A stretch of 51,402 bases of DNA, taken from positions 1 to 51,402 of IMG/VR virus record IMGVR_UViG_3300044977_000142, one strand, 5' to 3'. Within the stretch, counting starts at the first letter, position 1. Each line of letters opens with the position of its first letter. The notes below the pieces were generated by a model. That model was not told the origin of the DNA, did not search any database, and worked only from the letters and a program-made list of their open reading frames with translations. The stretch is from a virus. This document shows, in pieces, positions 9,057 to 45,880 of the stretch. Position numbers and translations under genes: made by a program.

Positions 9057-9072
9057 GCAGCGCAGGCCACGG

Positions 9073-9145
9073 CTCGGGGAGCAGGACTCGAACCTGCGTA
9101 TGCGAGAATCAAAGTCTCGTGCCTTACCATCTTGGCTATCCCCGA
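9073..9145 (-). tRNA. tRNA-Gln (anticodon TTG)
   Basis: 73 bases. The acceptor stem TCGGGGA pairs with TCCCCGA. The D-arm region GCCAAGATGGTAAGGC has the tRNA-Gln signature. The anticodon arm CGAGA-CTTTGAT-TCTCG presents TTG (codon CAA), and the T-arm GCAGG-TTCGAGT-CCTGC is perfect. CCA is not encoded. It lies one base after the stop of the zinc-ribbon gene and 16 bases before the terL ATG, so it must be cut out of the packaging transcript or made from its own signal. Confidence 0.93.
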
Positions 9146-13639: not shown

Positions 13640-13833
13640 ATCTACCCGATCTATCTCTGCATCTGCCGCCATATCCAATTGATATTAATCATATTTAGAT
13701 AGATAGATAGATAAGATAGATAGTTACCGTAATAACACAGGAGAGACTTAATACGAGATCGTGACACGCAGGGCGAGCGGCGCCATAATCCACGCGCTAA
13801 GTAGAAACCATCTATCCCGATCTATCTATCTAT
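13640..13833. repeat. GATA tract, complementary CTAT tract and a duplicated CCCGATCTATCT
   Basis: CCCGATCTATCT occurs at 13645-13656 and again at 13816-13827, each in an ATCTA context. Between them is a TAGATAGATAGATAG-type tract (13696-13723) whose complement is the CTATCTATCTATC tract near 13821-13833. The two tracts could pair across about 100 bases, and microsatellite slippage could make the length vary between isolates. Confidence 0.7.
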
Positions 13834-14094: not shown

Positions 14095-14146
14095 TCGGCC
14101 GAGCGGTCTGTCAGGCCGAGCGGGTCTGTCAGGCCGAGCGGTCGCG
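14095..14146. repeat. Three tandem copies of a 16-18 base unit over the primase stop
   Basis: The unit TCAGGCCGAGCGGTCTG-like is present three times in a row: 14095-14110, 14111-14128 (one extra G) and 14129-14146 (diverged last bases). The primase TGA is inside the third copy and the Lar-like gene ends at 14094, so the repeats fill the space between two convergent genes. Origin by slippage is likely; no terminator hairpin with a T run is seen. Confidence 0.75.
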
Positions 14147-16351
14147 CTTGATCCAGATGAAGCCGACCTTGTCCTTCTTGCGCTCGTAACCATTGCCGCG
14201 CAGGATGGCTGACACGCGACGGCAATGCGCTTCGTTGATCTGGTTGAGCTGCATGCCGATAGCATCGGTGAGCAGACGCTTTGCTGTGATGGACGCGCCG
14301 ATGGGCGATATTTTGTATCGAACCCACCATTCCTCGGCCTTCTCGAGTATCGGCTCGGCCCATCCGTCTGATTCGCTGCGCGCGGTTTGCTCATCGCGCG
14401 TCGCATCGGCTGGCATCTCATACCAACGTGCACCGTCGCGATAGCGTGCCAAGGCTTCTGCGAAGAGCTGATCCCGGGTTAACTGCAGGGTATTTAAGTT
14501 GATATCCGTACACCGAATCGGCCAATAGCGGCGCTTGCCTCGCATGTCTGACAGATAGTCGTCAGTTTCAGAAGTGGCCGCAAACACACAGGTGCGCGGA
14601 TATTCCTGAGGCTCGCGACCGTACGGCGCCCGATAGGTGTCGTTGCGAATAGTTATTGTGGCGAGGACCGCCGAGTGTGCAACTCGATTGAACCCGGTCA
14701 TGTCAGGGATTTCAACGAGCCACGCGCCGCGTAAGGCTTGGAGGAAATCCTTGGAGCCGAACTCCATCGGCAATGGTTTGTACCATTCGCCGCCGAGCAC
14801 CTCTAACAAAGACGTCTTGGAAAGCCCTGAAACTCCCTCTAAAACGGGCATGTTATCCATTTTACATCCGGGTTCGGACGCGCGCGCAATCATGCCGATA
14901 AGCCAGTTGGATGCGATGGATTTCGAGTATTCGTTGAATTCCACGCCGGCGCAATCGGCCAACCATGTATTGAGGCGTTCGGTGCGATCCCATGCTGGCA
15001 AAGAGTCGAGCCAAGCGGTCAGCGAATTGCGCCGATTGCATTCCGCAGCGTGTTGCAAACCCTCCTCCACAATACGACTGGTGAATTTGGCAAGTTTAAG
15101 TTTTTGTTGAATGTTGACAGTGAGAGCGCGTGTCTCGGCATCCGTCCAGCGAACCGGAGTGGGTCCGCGCAGAGTGTGATACGTCGCGCCCCTGAAATCG
15201 TCGAACCAGATATGACCCTTGAATATCGAGTGAGACTGAAGGATTTTACTGACGTTGGACAGCGACGGGACTGGAATCCCTTTGACGCACTCGAGATCCA
15301 AAGAGGCCAGAGTAACGAGTGGCGATTGCTCGGTTGGCGCGAGGGTGCCCGCGTCGGGAGCCGCTACGATCGCCGGCGGCTCAGTGACCCGCTGGGCCTT
15401 CGGCCCCTCAATCTGCGCCACCGTATGCGCCGCCATCCAATCCACGAGCGGCCTCCCGGTAAGCCCACCCTCGATCGCATCGGCCACATCCCACCCCGGA
15501 TCGGCGCCATTGGGATTCACCGCGCGCACGCGCTGGGCAGTGGGGACCAGCAGGGTCGAGATCGCGGCGGCTGCAGCGCGGCCCGGGTCATCCGCATCGG
15601 GCCAGATGAGCACGTCGCGACCGGCGAGCGCTGACCAGTCCGTCTGCCTGACGCCGGCGACGCCACCGGACCACGTCGTGAGGACATAGCCGAACAGCGG
15701 CTTGCGGGCCACCTCGACGCATTTCTCCCCTTCGACCACGAGGACGGGCGCGCCCGGATACTTGACGAGCTCGTGCGCGTTGTACAGCGGGCGATGGTCA
15801 CCATAACCCTGGCGGCTCCACTTGCCACGCCGCCACGTCCACTGGCAGAACGCCTTGGCCGGGTGGCCATCCTCATCCGTGAAGTCGTAGCGCGTGACCA
15901 CGAACGCATTGCCGTAGCGATACAGGGCCGTGTGCACGCCGTAATCGGGGTGGGATAGGATTTCCGGGGCGTCCTCGGGGATCGGCTCAGCGAGGCGCTC
16001 CGGCGGTTTGGCGCGGATTGGGGTGGCGGGCTGGGCGACGGGGTGTGAGGACCAGGGGTGTGAGGACCAATCGCCCCCGAGCTGCGCCTCGATCTGCCTG
16101 AACGCCTCGCCCTGATCGACGCCGAATACCGCGGCGTAGAAGCCGATGATGTCGTGCCCCGCGAGACCGCCCGCAAAATGCGACCAGACGCCGGTGTCGA
16201 GGCGGATCGACCACGAGTCGCCGATGCCGCCATCACGGGTGCGCGCCGCGGTCCAGTTGTCGCCCGACCGCTTGCCGCCGACCCAGCGTGGGAGCAGGTC
16301 AGACGCCTGTGCGAGGGCCGCGCGCGCGAGGCCCGGATAGTCCCAGCCCAT
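14129..16351 (-). CDS. Primase-helicase with VapE/VirE-type ATPase domain
   Basis: 740 residues. The N-terminal part (to about 130) has a DUF3987/primase-like WSIRLDTGVWSHFAGGLAG segment. A TOPRIM-like region follows, with VVEGEK at 205-210 and LIWPDADDPG at 248-257. The C-terminal half has the VapE-type P-loop VLEGVSGLSKTSLLEVLG near 503-520 and a Walker B-like WLVEIPDM near 544-551. These proteins start replication by making primers and opening DNA. It is the only replication initiator in the window, and no DNA polymerase is seen, so the host polymerase is probably used. Confidence 0.85.
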   Translation of the reverse strand: MGWDYPGLARAALAQASDLLPRWVGGKRSGDNWTAARTRDGGIGDSWSIRLDTGVWSHFAGGLAGHDIIGFYAAVFGVDQGEAFRQIEAQLGGDWSSHPWSSHPVAQPATPIRAKPPERLAEPIPEDAPEILSHPDYGVHTALYRYGNAFVVTRYDFTDEDGHPAKAFCQWTWRRGKWSRQGYGDHRPLYNAHELVKYPGAPVLVVEGEKCVEVARKPLFGYVLTTWSGGVAGVRQTDWSALAGRDVLIWPDADDPGRAAAAAISTLLVPTAQRVRAVNPNGADPGWDVADAIEGGLTGRPLVDWMAAHTVAQIEGPKAQRVTEPPAIVAAPDAGTLAPTEQSPLVTLASLDLECVKGIPVPSLSNVSKILQSHSIFKGHIWFDDFRGATYHTLRGPTPVRWTDAETRALTVNIQQKLKLAKFTSRIVEEGLQHAAECNRRNSLTAWLDSLPAWDRTERLNTWLADCAGVEFNEYSKSIASNWLIGMIARASEPGCKMDNMPVLEGVSGLSKTSLLEVLGGEWYKPLPMEFGSKDFLQALRGAWLVEIPDMTGFNRVAHSAVLATITIRNDTYRAPYGREPQEYPRTCVFAATSETDDYLSDMRGKRRYWPIRCTDINLNTLQLTRDQLFAEALARYRDGARWYEMPADATRDEQTARSESDGWAEPILEKAEEWWVRYKISPIGASITAKRLLTDAIGMQLNQINEAHCRRVSAILRGNGYERKKDKVGFIWIKRDRSA

Positions 16352-16558: not shown

Positions 16559-16745
16559 GAAAGACCCCGGCGGATAATTATTAGCGGTGTAGATATCTAT
16601 GGCGTGCGGCCACGCTTCGAATCTAAGGCTGGAGCGATGCGAACGCAAGCGGTATGGTGCCGAAACGTGAAATTGAGGTGTGTGATGCAGTGCGGACGTA
16701 GAGGGTGAGCGCACGAGCGGGTAAGTCCAAGCGAACGGGCGAGCC

Positions 16746-18416
16746 GTGAGCGCAGTGATATTGAGCGGCGGCCGCATCCTAGGCGCGCCAGGCGCGGTCT
16801 ACGCCGTCAACACAACACTGCCGGCGATCCCGGCAACGTTTCCGCGCGTGGCGATTGTAGCCAACGGCGGCGACGTCAGTTACGGCCAGGACTCAACATC
16901 GGGCTTTGTGTCGTATACCGCCTCGGCGCCGACCACGCCGGCCGGAATCGGCGTGCAGACGGTGGGAGCCTACGATCTGGCGATCCTCGGAGGCTCGTTC
17001 GAAGGCAGCGGCGCCTACAGCGGCACGAAACGCGCGAATCTGATTACCGCGTTGAAGGGCGGCGGAACCTATCCGATCGCGCTCAATCGAAGTCGGCCGA
17101 CGCGATGCTTTCCGTACGCGATCATGGAGTCAGGGTTGGCGTCCGGCGCGAGTGGAGGCTATGCCGGATTTAACAACATATGCCTGTCCAATAACTGGTG
17201 GGCGTGGAATGCCGCCGGGGGGGCGGGCTCGAAGCTGACCCGTTCGGGGACGATCAACGCCTCGACGCAGTATGAGATCAACTACGGCTATGCATGGGAT
17301 ACCTCGGCCGGATCGGCCGGATTGGATCAGCCGATCTGCGGCAATGTGTATGGGACGTTGTCGGCTGGTCAGGGCCCGGCGCAGACGGCGGCGACGTACT
17401 TCGCTTCGGGGTTATTGACGACAAATCCGCAGGATTCCAGGTTTTTGTCGCTGACGAATGGCGCCGCGCCGAATGCCGATGGGGTGTTTCTCGACAACTG
17501 TTTCATATTCCCCGATGGGGGAGGCGCGCTGACGTCCTCGACAGGCTATTGGGATGGGGTTAATAGTTTCAATAACAATGCGATTGCGGCGTATCCGACC
17601 GGTACATCCTCACTGCTCGCGCGGGGGCAGTATCACTTCTTTGCGACGCTACAGGCGTATCTCGCGACGTGCAACCCGGGCTCGACGTATTACAACTTCG
17701 GCAACTTCGGCGATTACTGGAACAGTGTGGGGTATGGGAATATCGGCTCATTGACCGCTAACGGCGCGGCGGGGGTATTCAACGGCGGCCTGGTGGAAGG
17801 GGCGTTCGGGATTCCGTCGAGTTCGTACCAAGCGTTCCAGACATACGCCGATATGCAGGGAAATTACACGAACCTGACGGCGTTCTGTGTGGCACCGAAG
17901 ATGCCGGTCATCGGTAGTTGGTTGCCGGCGACCGATGGAAGCGAGACGGCGACGTTCACGACCGGCGGGATTGCGACGGTGGCTTCGACCGGGACCGCAC
18001 TCGAGTATCAGTTGATGCGGTTGGGGCTGTGTTTCACGCTGGTGAATGGCAACGCGCTGTACGGCACGGGCGTGGACGGCTACAACTGGGCGGTCACGCG
18101 CTGGTATGACGAGTTTGGCGATGATTCGTTGACGCAAGTCAATGTGCCGCGCGGCTATCTCGGGACACCGGTGAATGGGACGTTGACGATTATCACGCTA
18201 TCGAACGGCGTGCAGTTGCGGGCGTTCACGGGGGGTGTCGCGTTGATCAACCCGTGGGGCAACGGGGCGCAGACGGTGACGCCGTCGCAGTTGTCCGCGC
18301 AGGGGCTGACTGGGTTGTTTTTTCTAGGTGGAACGCAGCAGCCATTGGTCAATACCGGCGCGGCGTTCAGCTCGCGGGAGATGGCGGACGCGGATGCGTT
18401 GATATTGGTGTATTGA
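16746..18416 (+). CDS. Glycoside-hydrolase-like protein (putative TIM barrel)
   Basis: 556 residues. After a Ser/Gly-rich start it reads like the putative glycosyl hydrolase TIM-barrel group (GH114/GHL-type): GAYDLAILGGSF near 74-85, a strand with ADGVFLDNCF near 244-253 whose Asp250 is the expected catalytic position, NGGLVEGAFG near 347-355 with Glu351 as second candidate, and a C-terminal NPWGNGAQTV beta part. The family cleaves polysaccharides. It starts at GTG 16746 with a weak ribosome site and is the only large plus-strand gene in this part. It may be a capsule depolymerase or a virion enzyme; function inferred. Confidence 0.65.
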   Translation: MSAVILSGGRILGAPGAVYAVNTTLPAIPATFPRVAIVANGGDVSYGQDSTSGFVSYTASAPTTPAGIGVQTVGAYDLAILGGSFEGSGAYSGTKRANLITALKGGGTYPIALNRSRPTRCFPYAIMESGLASGASGGYAGFNNICLSNNWWAWNAAGGAGSKLTRSGTINASTQYEINYGYAWDTSAGSAGLDQPICGNVYGTLSAGQGPAQTAATYFASGLLTTNPQDSRFLSLTNGAAPNADGVFLDNCFIFPDGGGALTSSTGYWDGVNSFNNNAIAAYPTGTSSLLARGQYHFFATLQAYLATCNPGSTYYNFGNFGDYWNSVGYGNIGSLTANGAAGVFNGGLVEGAFGIPSSSYQAFQTYADMQGNYTNLTAFCVAPKMPVIGSWLPATDGSETATFTTGGIATVASTGTALEYQLMRLGLCFTLVNGNALYGTGVDGYNWAVTRWYDEFGDDSLTQVNVPRGYLGTPVNGTLTIITLSNGVQLRAFTGGVALINPWGNGAQTVTPSQLSAQGLTGLFFLGGTQQPLVNTGAAFSSREMADADALILVY

Positions 18417-18441
18417 CGCGGGTGTAGCACGGTGGTATACA
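18413..18441 (+). promoter_or_regulatory. Near-consensus sigma-70 promoter before csrA
   Basis: TTGACG (18413-18418), then 17 bases, then TATACA (18436-18441). The spacing is ideal and both boxes differ from consensus by one or two bases. The -35 box overlaps the TGA of the glycoside-hydrolase gene. It would drive the small gene at 18466 and csrA. Confidence 0.7.
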
Positions 18442-18465
18442 GGGGTCGTTACGAAGGAGCGCCAG

Positions 18466-18684
18466 ATGACCACGTTTGTAGGCAACCACTACGGCACCCT
18501 GTCCGGCGAATGCCCCGCACCCGGCATCAGCTGGTCCTTCGAACAACCCACCACCGTCGCGATATATCCGATCCTGCAGCCAACCTATTTCTATTGCACC
18601 GGCCGCGCGCGCCGCTGGGAGCGATTCGGGTATTCGTTGGAGGATGCGCGCAGTTTGATTGAGTATCTCAATTCACGCGAATAG
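18466..18684 (+). CDS. Small hypothetical protein upstream of csrA
   Basis: 72 residues. Good ribosome site AAGGAG nine bases before the ATG. The protein has a hydrophobic-aromatic core (ISWSFEQPTTVAIYPIL, TYFYCTGRARRWERFGY) and a helical end (EDARSLIEYLN). It ends 10 bases before csrA, so the two share the promoter at 18413. Function unknown; a link with RNA regulation would be guesswork. Confidence 0.75.
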   Translation: MTTFVGNHYGTLSGECPAPGISWSFEQPTTVAIYPILQPTYFYCTGRARRWERFGYSLEDARSLIEYLNSRE

Positions 18685-18694
18685 GGAGAAAGTC

Positions 18695-18901
18695 ATGTTG
18701 CTACTCGCCCGCAGAGCGAAAGAATCCATCATCATCGGCAATCGCACGATCACCATCCGGGTCATGAAGGTCGAGCGCGGCGTCGTGACCTTGGGGATCG
18801 AGGCACCGCGTGACGTACCGGTGCACCGCGAGGAGATATTCGAGCGGATCGAGGATGAGATTCGGCGGTTGGAGAAAGAAATAGAGCCTACAGCGGCGTG
18901 A
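18695..18901 (+). CDS. csrA: CsrA-family translational regulator
   Basis: 68 residues, the size of bacterial CsrA (61 in E. coli). The ATG at 18695 follows AGGGAGAAAG. The protein begins MLLLARRAKESIIIG with Leu4 and Arg6-Arg7 at the RNA-binding positions, and continues through strands TITIRVMKVERGVVTLGIEAP to VHREEIFERI, where Arg45 matches the key Arg44 of E. coli CsrA. CsrA dimers bind GGA motifs in mRNA leaders and repress or stabilise them. It has its own promoter (18413) and overlaps the convergent VRR-NUC gene by 14 bases. A phage copy could tune host or phage translation. Confidence 0.92.
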   Translation: MLLLARRAKESIIIGNRTITIRVMKVERGVVTLGIEAPRDVPVHREEIFERIEDEIRRLEKEIEPTAA

Positions 18902-19286
18902 GGCCCTGGATAATCCGCGCCGCATCCTCGACGCTGCGCGCGATGCCGGCGCGGCCGCCGAGCGCGCGGATTGCCGCGATATAAGCGAGCTGTTCAGGCG
19001 TGGGGCGACCCCGACCGAATTTCGCTTCGATCTGCACGTCGATAGCGACCACGCGGCCAACCATATCGGGCGTGACGATCACGGACGTCAGGCCGCCCAC
19101 GTCGCTGATGCCGACCGTGCCGAGTTTCATCGCGTGCGGGTGAATAATCGTCACCGTGTTGGACGTGCGCTCTATCACTTTGCCGGCCCACGCGAGCGCC
19201 GATTGTTGTCTGAACAGGCGCGTGGGGCCGCGCGAGAATTCGCGGAGGATGTCGTTGACGAGTTCGGTGGGGCCGGAGGCGGTCAT
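18888..19286 (-). CDS. VRR-NUC domain nuclease
   Basis: 132 residues. The VRR-NUC pattern is clear: VGISDVGGL at 58-66 (Asp62), VQIEAKFGRGRPTPEQLAYI at 84-103 with Glu87 and Lys89 as metal/catalytic residues and Gln99, then ALGGRAGIARS at 108-118. This PD-(D/E)XK-like fold is a nuclease used by phages in DNA repair, recombination or host-DNA degradation. It overlaps the next gene's stop by ATGA and belongs to the helicase operon. Confidence 0.85.
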   Translation of the reverse strand: MTASGPTELVNDILREFSRGPTRLFRQQSALAWAGKVIERTSNTVTIIHPHAMKLGTVGISDVGGLTSVIVTPDMVGRVVAIDVQIEAKFGRGRPTPEQLAYIAAIRALGGRAGIARSVEDAARIIQGLTPL

Positions 19287-41406: not shown

Positions 41407-44400
41407 TGCGGTATCTGCCCGTTTTCGAGCATGCGCAGGTTCTGGCTTTTCTGTTTGAGCGCGGTCATGCCCTTGGGTCCAATACGATCTTTCAGGGCGA
41501 TCAGTTCGCCCACATCGCCCCGCCGCTGCGCATCCTCGACCCGGTATACGTCAGGGTCGAAATTTTTGGCCCATTCCGAGCGGAATTTCTGGTACCCCTT
41601 CAGGTTCGGGACATCTCCAGTGCCGATGGCCTTGTCCAATCCCTCACGGTACGCCATAGCACCGCTGTTGATGGCGTCCGCAAACTTGACTTTTTCCTGC
41701 AACGCAGCCGGCGTGTATTCCGTCGTGCCGGTCGCGCTCTGCGACGCAGCCAGTCCCGCGTTGGTATGGGGTACACCCATCGCTGCCGCAGACGTCGCTG
41801 CCTGCCGCTCGAGATAGGCGTTGATTTCCTGATAGCTGGAACCTGACTTGAGCCCCGCCGCCGCCGCCAGTTTCTGCACCGTGGCCGTCATCGGGCCGGT
41901 GGCCGTGCCGCTGGACAGTTGCAGGAGCTGTTGGTTGACATTGCGGGCCTGCGGCGCAGCATCTCCGGCGGTACGCGCTGCAGCGACTTCGTTCAGGATG
42001 CGCGGCTGATCGGCGACGGACTGCGCGAAACCCGATCCGCCACCGCCGCCGGTCCCAGTTCCGGACTTAGCCGCAGGGCCTGCAGCAGCGGGTGCAGCCG
42101 GACCACGACTAGCGCCGACTGGGATGACTCTGTTGCTCTGCTGGTCGTAGGCATACTGTCGGCCAAAAGAATCGGTGAGGATGTTTGCACTCGGCGGCAA
42201 TTGCTGCTTTGCCACGCCGATTGCAGGCGCCCCCGTGCGCGAATTGACCCGCACCCCTTCTTTGTCGTCCCAGTTGTCTCCCGTCCATTGATGGATCGCG
42301 TTGTACTTCGCCTCTGCCGCCTGGCGCGCGCCGGGATCCGGATCGGTCGTCGCGGTCTTGTACAACTGGTCGGCTTCGACCTGTGCCGATTTCTGATTCC
42401 CATAGGTTTGATTCTGAACGCGCTGATCGTGGACGGCTGTAGCATCCTGGACTGGTTGGTCACTGCCGAGCGCGATGGCTGCGCCGCGGGCTTTTTTTAG
42501 CGCGGCCTGTTCATCTGGCGTCCACGGCGTGACCTCATATTTATTCTTGTAGTAGTCATTCAGTCGTTGCGCCACGGCCGCCGGGTCAGCCGATTGCGGC
42601 TGCTGAGGCGCATTGATGGGCGATATCGCAGGCGCTGCGGGTGTCGGCGTTCGTGTAACGCCCTGTGCACCGCTCGGAGTTGCCGATGTTCCGCCTCCAC
42701 CCGGCGTCAGATATCCCTTAGCAGCCTGCACCTTCATCTGCCCTAGCTGATTCGCAATCTGCAGCCCTTGCGCCTTCTGCTGCTCGACCTGCGTATCCGC
42801 AAGCGATTTCTGCGTATCCAAATACGACTGCGACCCCGCGCCAAGTCCGGCCGCCAACGCCACACCCGGATGCACCGTCTTGGCCGTCCCCATGGCTGCC
42901 AATCCTTGCAGAATCGGGATCACGTTCTGCGCGGTCGCGTGCTTCTTGATCGAATCCCAGATACCGCCGCTGTCCAACGAGGCTCCCCCAGCGAGTCCCG
43001 CGCCGCGATCCGCATCGCTCGCAACATCCGGCGTTGCGTCCGGGGCTGCCGCATCGACATCCGGATCCGGCGTGCCGCCATCGGCGAATCGCCCGCGCCC
43101 CACGACGCCGCCGCGCGCAACCGCCTCGTTACTGAATATCGAGCCCGCCATAGAGCTCGCCTGCGTCGGGTCGCCCATCTTCATGGCGGATTGCAGGCCG
43201 GTCGGCTGCTTCACGAGCGGCCCGGCGGTCTGCAACTTCGTCGTGTTCTGATCGTCCGGGATGTCGAGGGGGTCCGAGCCATCGCCTTCGTACGGCGTAC
43301 CGCCGCCTAGATCACGGCGCCGGATTTTGCCACCGCGCTTGGCGGCAATAATCGCTGCAGCGGCTACATCTGCCGCCGCGTATTCGGCTGCGAGGGCTGC
43401 TGCGGCATCGGCGCCCCCCTCGGCCGCTGCACCCGCTGCGGCGCCTGTAGCCGCTCCTGCTGCGACATCACCAGCGCCAGCCGCCGCAACGTCGCCAGCG
43501 CCTGCTGCGGCGCCCGTGTCAGCCGCGCCGAGTCCGGAGGCCTGTGCGGGGGCTGCGGCCCCGAAGTCAGTCGTGGTCCCGATCGGCGTCGACGTCACAG
43601 GCCCAGCCGGCGCGTCGAAATCAGTCGTCAGCCCCGCAGCGTTTTGCGAGGGAGCCGCAGCGCCCGCAGTATTACCCGGATCGCCGGCTATGCCGCCCGT
43701 CGTCGGCTTGTTGAAATACTTGTACCCCTGGTAGGCATCCTTGCCGAGCCCCTCGACGGTCGACATCTTGCTCGATCCGGACGCGGGTGGCGCGGGCGTG
43801 CCGCTCGCGACCGCGAGCTGGTGGCTCTGTCCCTGACTTTGGATATTGCGCTGCTGACCGGCGGGGCTCGCGTACATGTTCTGCTGCGCTTGTAGCACGG
43901 CGCCGAGTCCGCCGCTGTTATCGGGCGTGCCGCCATACGCGTACGCCGCGCGCATCGGGACGACGCCGCCCGAGTAGAAATGCCCGCGGTTCGCGGCATC
44001 CTCGGTCGCTTTGCCGTAGTCGACGTACCGGAATCCGCCAGCGAGGCCGACCGCCTCGGGATGCTTCTTCTCGGTCTTCTGCGCGCTGAGGCCGATTCTG
44101 TCGCGCGGGTCGCCCTTGATCTTGTAGCGGTAGATCGTCTGGCCGTCGAAGGTTTTGCCGACGGGCCGCATGTCTTCTTTGAGGCGTTCGTCGGAGAAGA
44201 AGCCGCCGGGTTGGGTTGTGGTGGTGGTCGATCCCGATAGAGCGCCGGTCCCCTCGGCGATGGACGCGAGGAACTCGTCCACCTGAAATGGATAGGATTG
44301 TTCCTGGAGAAATTGGTTGTACTGCGCCGTGTCCTGCGCCTGTTGTGTTTGCTGTTGGACCGTGCCGGCCGCAATCTGTGCTTGCGCGCCCGAGAGGCCA

Positions 44401-45130: not shown

Positions 45131-45880
45131 CTAATTCATCCCTTGTTTGTCTACTGACAATGACATTAGCTTCTTTTTGTCCGCCCTTTCTCTGGCCAGT
45201 TTTCTCATCAACTCACAAAATTCCGGAGATCGCTTCTTGCCCGTGTTCGCCAGCCGGCGCCGTTCGATCTCCTCCGGGCGCTGTTTTCGACCAACGCTGG
45301 CCATGCGGGCCTTTTCTGCGTGCTCAGGCGATAGTTTCTTCCCTTTGTGGGAAGCCGCTATTTTTGCGTTGTGCTCTGGCGTTCTAACTTGAGAACGGCT
45401 GGCAAGCAAGAGCTTCGCCCTGACGTCAGGGCGTTGGACCGCTATCTTCAATCCGGCAGATATCTTGGCTCTCACTTCGGGAGAAGATAGCGCCGCGCGC
45501 GTGCTCTTAGCTATTTTGTCTTTGTGCTCCTCCGTTAAGATTTTTCCAAGTTTTCTCTGCCTCATCAATTCGCGGGTCGTGTCACTAGGATTTAGGCTAC
45601 CGTCCCCGCCGGCAGTGAGATTCACCAGGTTGACCTTCAAAGCGCGCCAGTAAGAAATTCGCTCTATTTCTCTAGTAACGGCCTCTTCTCTGGATAAGCC
45701 AGTAGCGATTAAACGAACCTCTACGGATTGACCGTTCCTTTTAAGCTTGGCCTGAATGTTAGAGTGATGATCGCTGCGCTTGTACATGACGCGCGCCCTG
45801 CGCCCCTTCCCCATGCCGACGTAGAAACAGACATTCTTGTCCGGACGCCAGTGCTCGTAAATGTAATAATCGGCACTCAC
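45131..45880 (-). CDS. GIY-YIG homing-type endonuclease with NUMOD-like repeats
   Basis: 249 residues. YYIYEHWRPDKNVCFYVGMG and KGRRARVMYKRSDHH at 5-39 form a GIY-YIG domain with Tyr and Arg at the active positions, and Glu near 71-73 in REIERISYW. The rest has at least four repeats of a SPEhrakIsag/HKGKKLSPEHAEKA type, NUMOD3-like DNA-binding modules. Free-standing homing endonucleases of this type spread between phage genes. It is inserted between the large injection protein and the GNAT gene and has its own GTGA coupling. Confidence 0.85.
   Translation of the reverse strand: MSADYYIYEHWRPDKNVCFYVGMGKGRRARVMYKRSDHHSNIQAKLKRNGQSVEVRLIATGLSREEAVTREIERISYWRALKVNLVNLTAGGDGSLNPSDTTRELMRQRKLGKILTEEHKDKIAKSTRAALSSPEVRAKISAGLKIAVQRPDVRAKLLLASRSQVRTPEHNAKIAASHKGKKLSPEHAEKARMASVGRKQRPEEIERRRLANTGKKRSPEFCELMRKLARERADKKKLMSLSVDKQGMN

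Follow-up and report, generated by a model that had tools for sequence, protein, structure and literature searches.

A diverged, phage-borne CsrA-family gene in an accessory cassette of an uncultured phage

The csrA locus and its transcription

The stretch of DNA analyzed here (the window) is a virus record of 51,402 bases, a metagenomic phage fragment with a GC content of 60%. It carries genes for a terminase, a portal, an ejection-type protein, a primase/helicase, RecT and Gam. Its terminase has no match above 44% identity in the phage collection. A search of genome contigs with the large terminase subunit (TerL) returned a single distant match, in a Gemmatimonadetes metagenome bin, which was too weak to name a host. 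The features relevant to this work are as follows.

9071-9145, minus strand: tRNA-Gln, anticodon ttg, called by ARAGORN and Rfam, immediately upstream of the gene for the large terminase subunit
14129-16351, minus strand: primase/helicase, which with a small minus-strand ORF forms one flank of the plus-strand trio
16559-16745, no strand: gap between divergent genes, a possible alternative promoter place for the whole cassette, from sequence and inference
16746-18416, plus strand: 556-codon ORF that opens the same-strand cassette, with three viral relatives
18413-18441, plus strand: promoter-like string TTGACG-17-TATACA, no better than chance
18466-18684, plus strand: 72-codon ORF, probably coding, judged from the AAGGAG ribosome site before it and its codon-position GC
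18684-18688, plus strand: csrA ribosome-binding site GGGAG, six bases before the ATG, from the sequence
18695-18901, plus strand: csrA, encoding a 68-residue CsrA-family protein, from Pfam PF02599, PHROG_9500 and PDB sequence and fold matches
18888-19286, minus strand: gene with nuclease matches, the other flank of the trio, its end overlapping the csrA stop

csrA closes an accessory cassette of three ORFs, which lies in the early region. The 556-codon ORF, the 72-codon ORF and csrA lie together on the plus strand, with minus-strand genes on both sides. The product of the 72-codon ORF had no relative in any collection searched, and we therefore rejected the idea of a conserved pair formed by csrA and its neighbor. 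Since the stop of this ORF overlaps the csrA ribosome site, the two genes may be translationally coupled. The same stop overlaps the sequence AGGGA (18683-18687), which fits the ANGGA motif. The product of the 556-codon ORF has three viral relatives, at 39-44% identity, each match being part of a much longer protein. One of these relatives gave a weak match, below threshold, to the hypothetical glycosyl hydrolase family GHL15, which hints at a glycosidase-like fold. The predicted structure of the 556-codon product itself (pLDDT 32) was unusable. This ORF stands alone, apart from the tail genes.

Elsewhere in the window, the predicted start of the terminase ORF runs into the tRNA-Gln, so the true start likely lies downstream. 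ARAGORN also called a tRNA-Val (43178-43270, plus strand) within a 1241-codon minus-strand ORF; Rfam gives this call no support, and it is thus probably spurious. A homing-endonuclease-like gene (PHROG_314; 45131-45880, minus strand) lies inside the structural region.

The sequence-only reading of this DNA had placed csrA under a near-consensus promoter, the best in the window. The string TTGACG-17-TATACA is indeed present, but it does not stand out. It matches 9/12 bases of the sigma-70 consensus, its -10 element does not end in the conserved T, and a better site (10/12) exists at 13761. The window holds 28 sites of at least 9/12, against 27.95 (sd 4.3) expected from 40 dinucleotide shuffles, a test that applies to hosts sharing this promoter consensus. 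As the site count equals that of the shuffles, the promoter was rejected as a special feature. Its -35 element shares bases with the stop codon of the upstream 556-codon ORF (TGA, 18414-18416). The further proposal, that the ORF at 18466 shares this promoter with csrA, was not retained, adjacency being all that speaks for it. We found no terminator-like site in the 15-23 kb interval searched, so that read-through from upstream is equally possible. The start of the csrA transcript may lie before 16746, at the gap between the divergent genes, just as well as at TTGACG-17-TATACA.

Family membership and the RNA-contact surface

CsrA is a bacterial protein that governs which messenger RNAs get translated. 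The csrA product scored 69.8 bits against the Pfam CsrA profile (PF02599, cut-off 27) over profile positions 1-52 of 53, its PHROG match was PHROG_9500 ("CsrA-like regulator"), and in the PDB it matched solved CsrA, RsmA and RsmE chains by sequence. The AlphaFold monomer was predicted with a pLDDT of 88.5. Every PDB fold match of this model with E <0.05 belonged to the CsrA family, RNA-bound RsmE and CsrA structures among them. This is a genuine gene of the CsrA family, supported by its sequence matches and predicted fold, and the earlier claim of a phage-borne CsrA is thereby upheld. The product did not reach the NCBIfam equivalog cut-offs (69.2 vs 73 for NF002469; 61.3 vs 70.1 for TIGR00202). 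With scores below these canonical-CsrA cut-offs, the window protein is a diverged family member.

The residues highlighted in the sequence-only reading of the 68-residue product (L4, R6, R7, and R45 in VHREEI) are all there, and A37, P38, V41, V43, H44, I48 and R51 are kept as well. Those that contact GGA (L4, V41, V43 and R45) are thus intact. Family membership was also judged by L4, V42 and R44 in E. coli numbering, which are present as L4, V43 and R45. R45 corresponds to R44 of RsmA, a residue essential for RNA binding (PMC3791407).

In RsmE, Thr5, Gln29 and Arg31 are cited as contacts to stem base pairs (PMC3791407), and the window protein has A5, V30 and T32 at these positions. Position 31 is R or K in 13/13 comparison proteins (E. 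coli CsrA, RsmE and 11 viral proteins), against T32 here; in the same set, the residues at positions 5 and 29 are more varied than that at position 31. With these stem contacts lost, the protein is predicted to depend less, or in a different way, than the host CsrA on the hairpin that encloses GGA, and its target set may differ. Compared with bacterial CsrA, RsmA and RsmE (PF02599; PDB 1Y00, 2BTI and 2JPP), the window protein shares fold, length, L4, R6, R7, V41, V43 and the VHREEI motif with R45. It differs from them in the A, V and T at stem-contact positions 5, 29 and 31 of RsmE and in one additional residue after position 15, and from canonical CsrA in its position below the NCBI cut-offs.

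Distribution among phages and plasmids

In a sister record (G016), whose TerL is 90% identical, the two genes that flank the trio are both present, and the space between them holds other small ORFs. No csrA was found in the 47 kb of this record, nor in a second relative (G020, TerL 86%), either of which may be incomplete. In two other related records, csrA lies directly after Gam (G007) or directly before a 282-codon ORF in the early region (G017). By this distribution, csrA is an accessory gene of variable position. The window protein is 46% identical to the CsrA of G007 and 38% to that of G017, and in a protein tree, most of whose forks were not resolved, it pairs with the CsrA protein L060 (support 87/85). 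Shared descent and separate acquisition both fit these identities and this tree, which do not tell the two apart.

More broadly, relatives of the window CsrA were found in viral contigs in two scans (16 and 22 overlapping loci) and in 122 records of the plasmid collection, mostly from Pseudomonas; the phage collection yielded only two weak matches with the same query. Four viral contigs (L072, L076, L078 and L013) encode very similar forms of CsrA extended C-terminally to 130 residues.

Phage csrA genes are already known, and the window gene adds a diverged member. Sobrero and Valverde tabulated 30 csrA phages in 2020, including F116, Bcep22, DC1 and PTXU04, some of them with hosts that have no chromosomal csrA (PMC7366521). 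The window gene is likewise phage-encoded but belongs to a different phage lineage. In JC1, as in other Bcep22-like phages, csrA (gp47 in JC1) is a moron carried by a podovirus-like genome, as it is here (PMC9144972). In the Bcep22-like group, however, the gene sits between the portal and major capsid genes and is common to the group, whereas the window gene lies in the early region and its presence is patchy.

Two homologues carried by mobile elements have been studied experimentally. Knockdown of the csrA homologue (gp28) of the E. coli phage PTXU04 shrank plaques, as reported in 2025 (PMC11879866); that phage was tested in E. coli, while the window phage and its host are uncultured. RsmQ of plasmid pQBR103, which also has the VHRE motif, binds both GGA and AnGGA, and it redirects the behavior of its host (PMC9928087). 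RsmQ belongs to a Pseudomonas plasmid and its GGA binding was shown experimentally, whereas the window protein is a phage product known from sequence. Binding of GGA sites by the window CsrA would fit both sets of tests.

Possible roles in infection

The reading we favor, and hold to be somewhat better than an even bet, is that csrA encodes an accessory, GGA-binding translational regulator that would aid infection, a diverged CsrA carried as a phage 'moron'. Its observed basis is the family sequence, the predicted fold, the GGA-reading residues and the patchy presence in related phages. That the protein would bind GGA sites in RNAs of the host or of the phage is the natural expectation. In our model, the protein, of which the monomer was modeled, would dimerize; the dimer would bind GGA motifs overlapping ribosome-binding sites, and this binding would shift the translation or stability of host mRNAs in favor of infection. 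Its own mRNA may also be a target, as the csrA ribosome site holds AGGGA. The changed stem-contact positions, the sub-cut-off canonical scores and the lack of GGA enrichment in phage leaders count against this reading.

A variant of this reading gives weight to the altered RNA-contact surface. With GGA reading kept and stem contacts lost, the protein might compete in part with the host Csr network or re-route it, which we regard as unlikely; if true, it would bind a target set unlike that of the host CsrA. About as unlikely is a timing device internal to the phage, which would regulate the phage's own mRNAs, that of csrA included, rather than those of the host. The AGGGA in the csrA ribosome site would suit such a device, but outside Shine-Dalgarno sites ANGGA was not enriched in 42 phage leaders (0.15 vs 0.22 in control stretches), in a weak test that relied on guessed gene starts in one small genome. 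Moreover, folding of the csrA leader was no better than that of shuffled sequences, with no unusual hairpin at the csrA start, and Rfam detected no CsrB/RsmZ-like RNA in the window, tRNA being its sole match. The leader and Rfam searches thus give no support to own-mRNA control or to a phage sponge RNA.

Alternatively, csrA could act mainly in the prophage state, where it would change how the host grows, moves or forms biofilm, rather than lytic yield. A 408-codon ORF in the related record G007 looks by eye like a putative integrase, and the temperate csrA phage JC1 alters the growth of its lysogen (PMC9144972). Yet that effect was not traced to csrA (PMC9144972), and no integrase was found in the window among the families and the part of the ORFs scanned, so we give lysogenic conversion little credence. 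We consider it very improbable that csrA is decaying cargo with weak or no function. Its patchy presence, the changed stem-contact residues and the scores under the canonical cut-offs would be expected of such cargo, but the open frame, the intact GGA-contact residues, the confident predicted fold and the recurrence of csrA in many viral contigs speak against it. Least credible of all is delivery in the virion, with a packaged protein acting from the first minutes of infection. A CsrA peptide was detected in JC1 virions, but it was a single peptide that its authors called unconfirmed (PMC9144972), and the position of JC1 csrA between portal and capsid genes contrasts with the early-region position seen here.

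In the papers searched, no phage CsrA had a named RNA target, and an effect on plaque size has been shown for one phage copy. CsrA homologues of phages and plasmids may give mobile elements post-transcriptional control of their hosts. The window CsrA is a diverged member, from a phage lineage with at best a 44% identical terminase in the phage collection, and its changed RNA-contact surface is a feature of some interest that can be tested cheaply.
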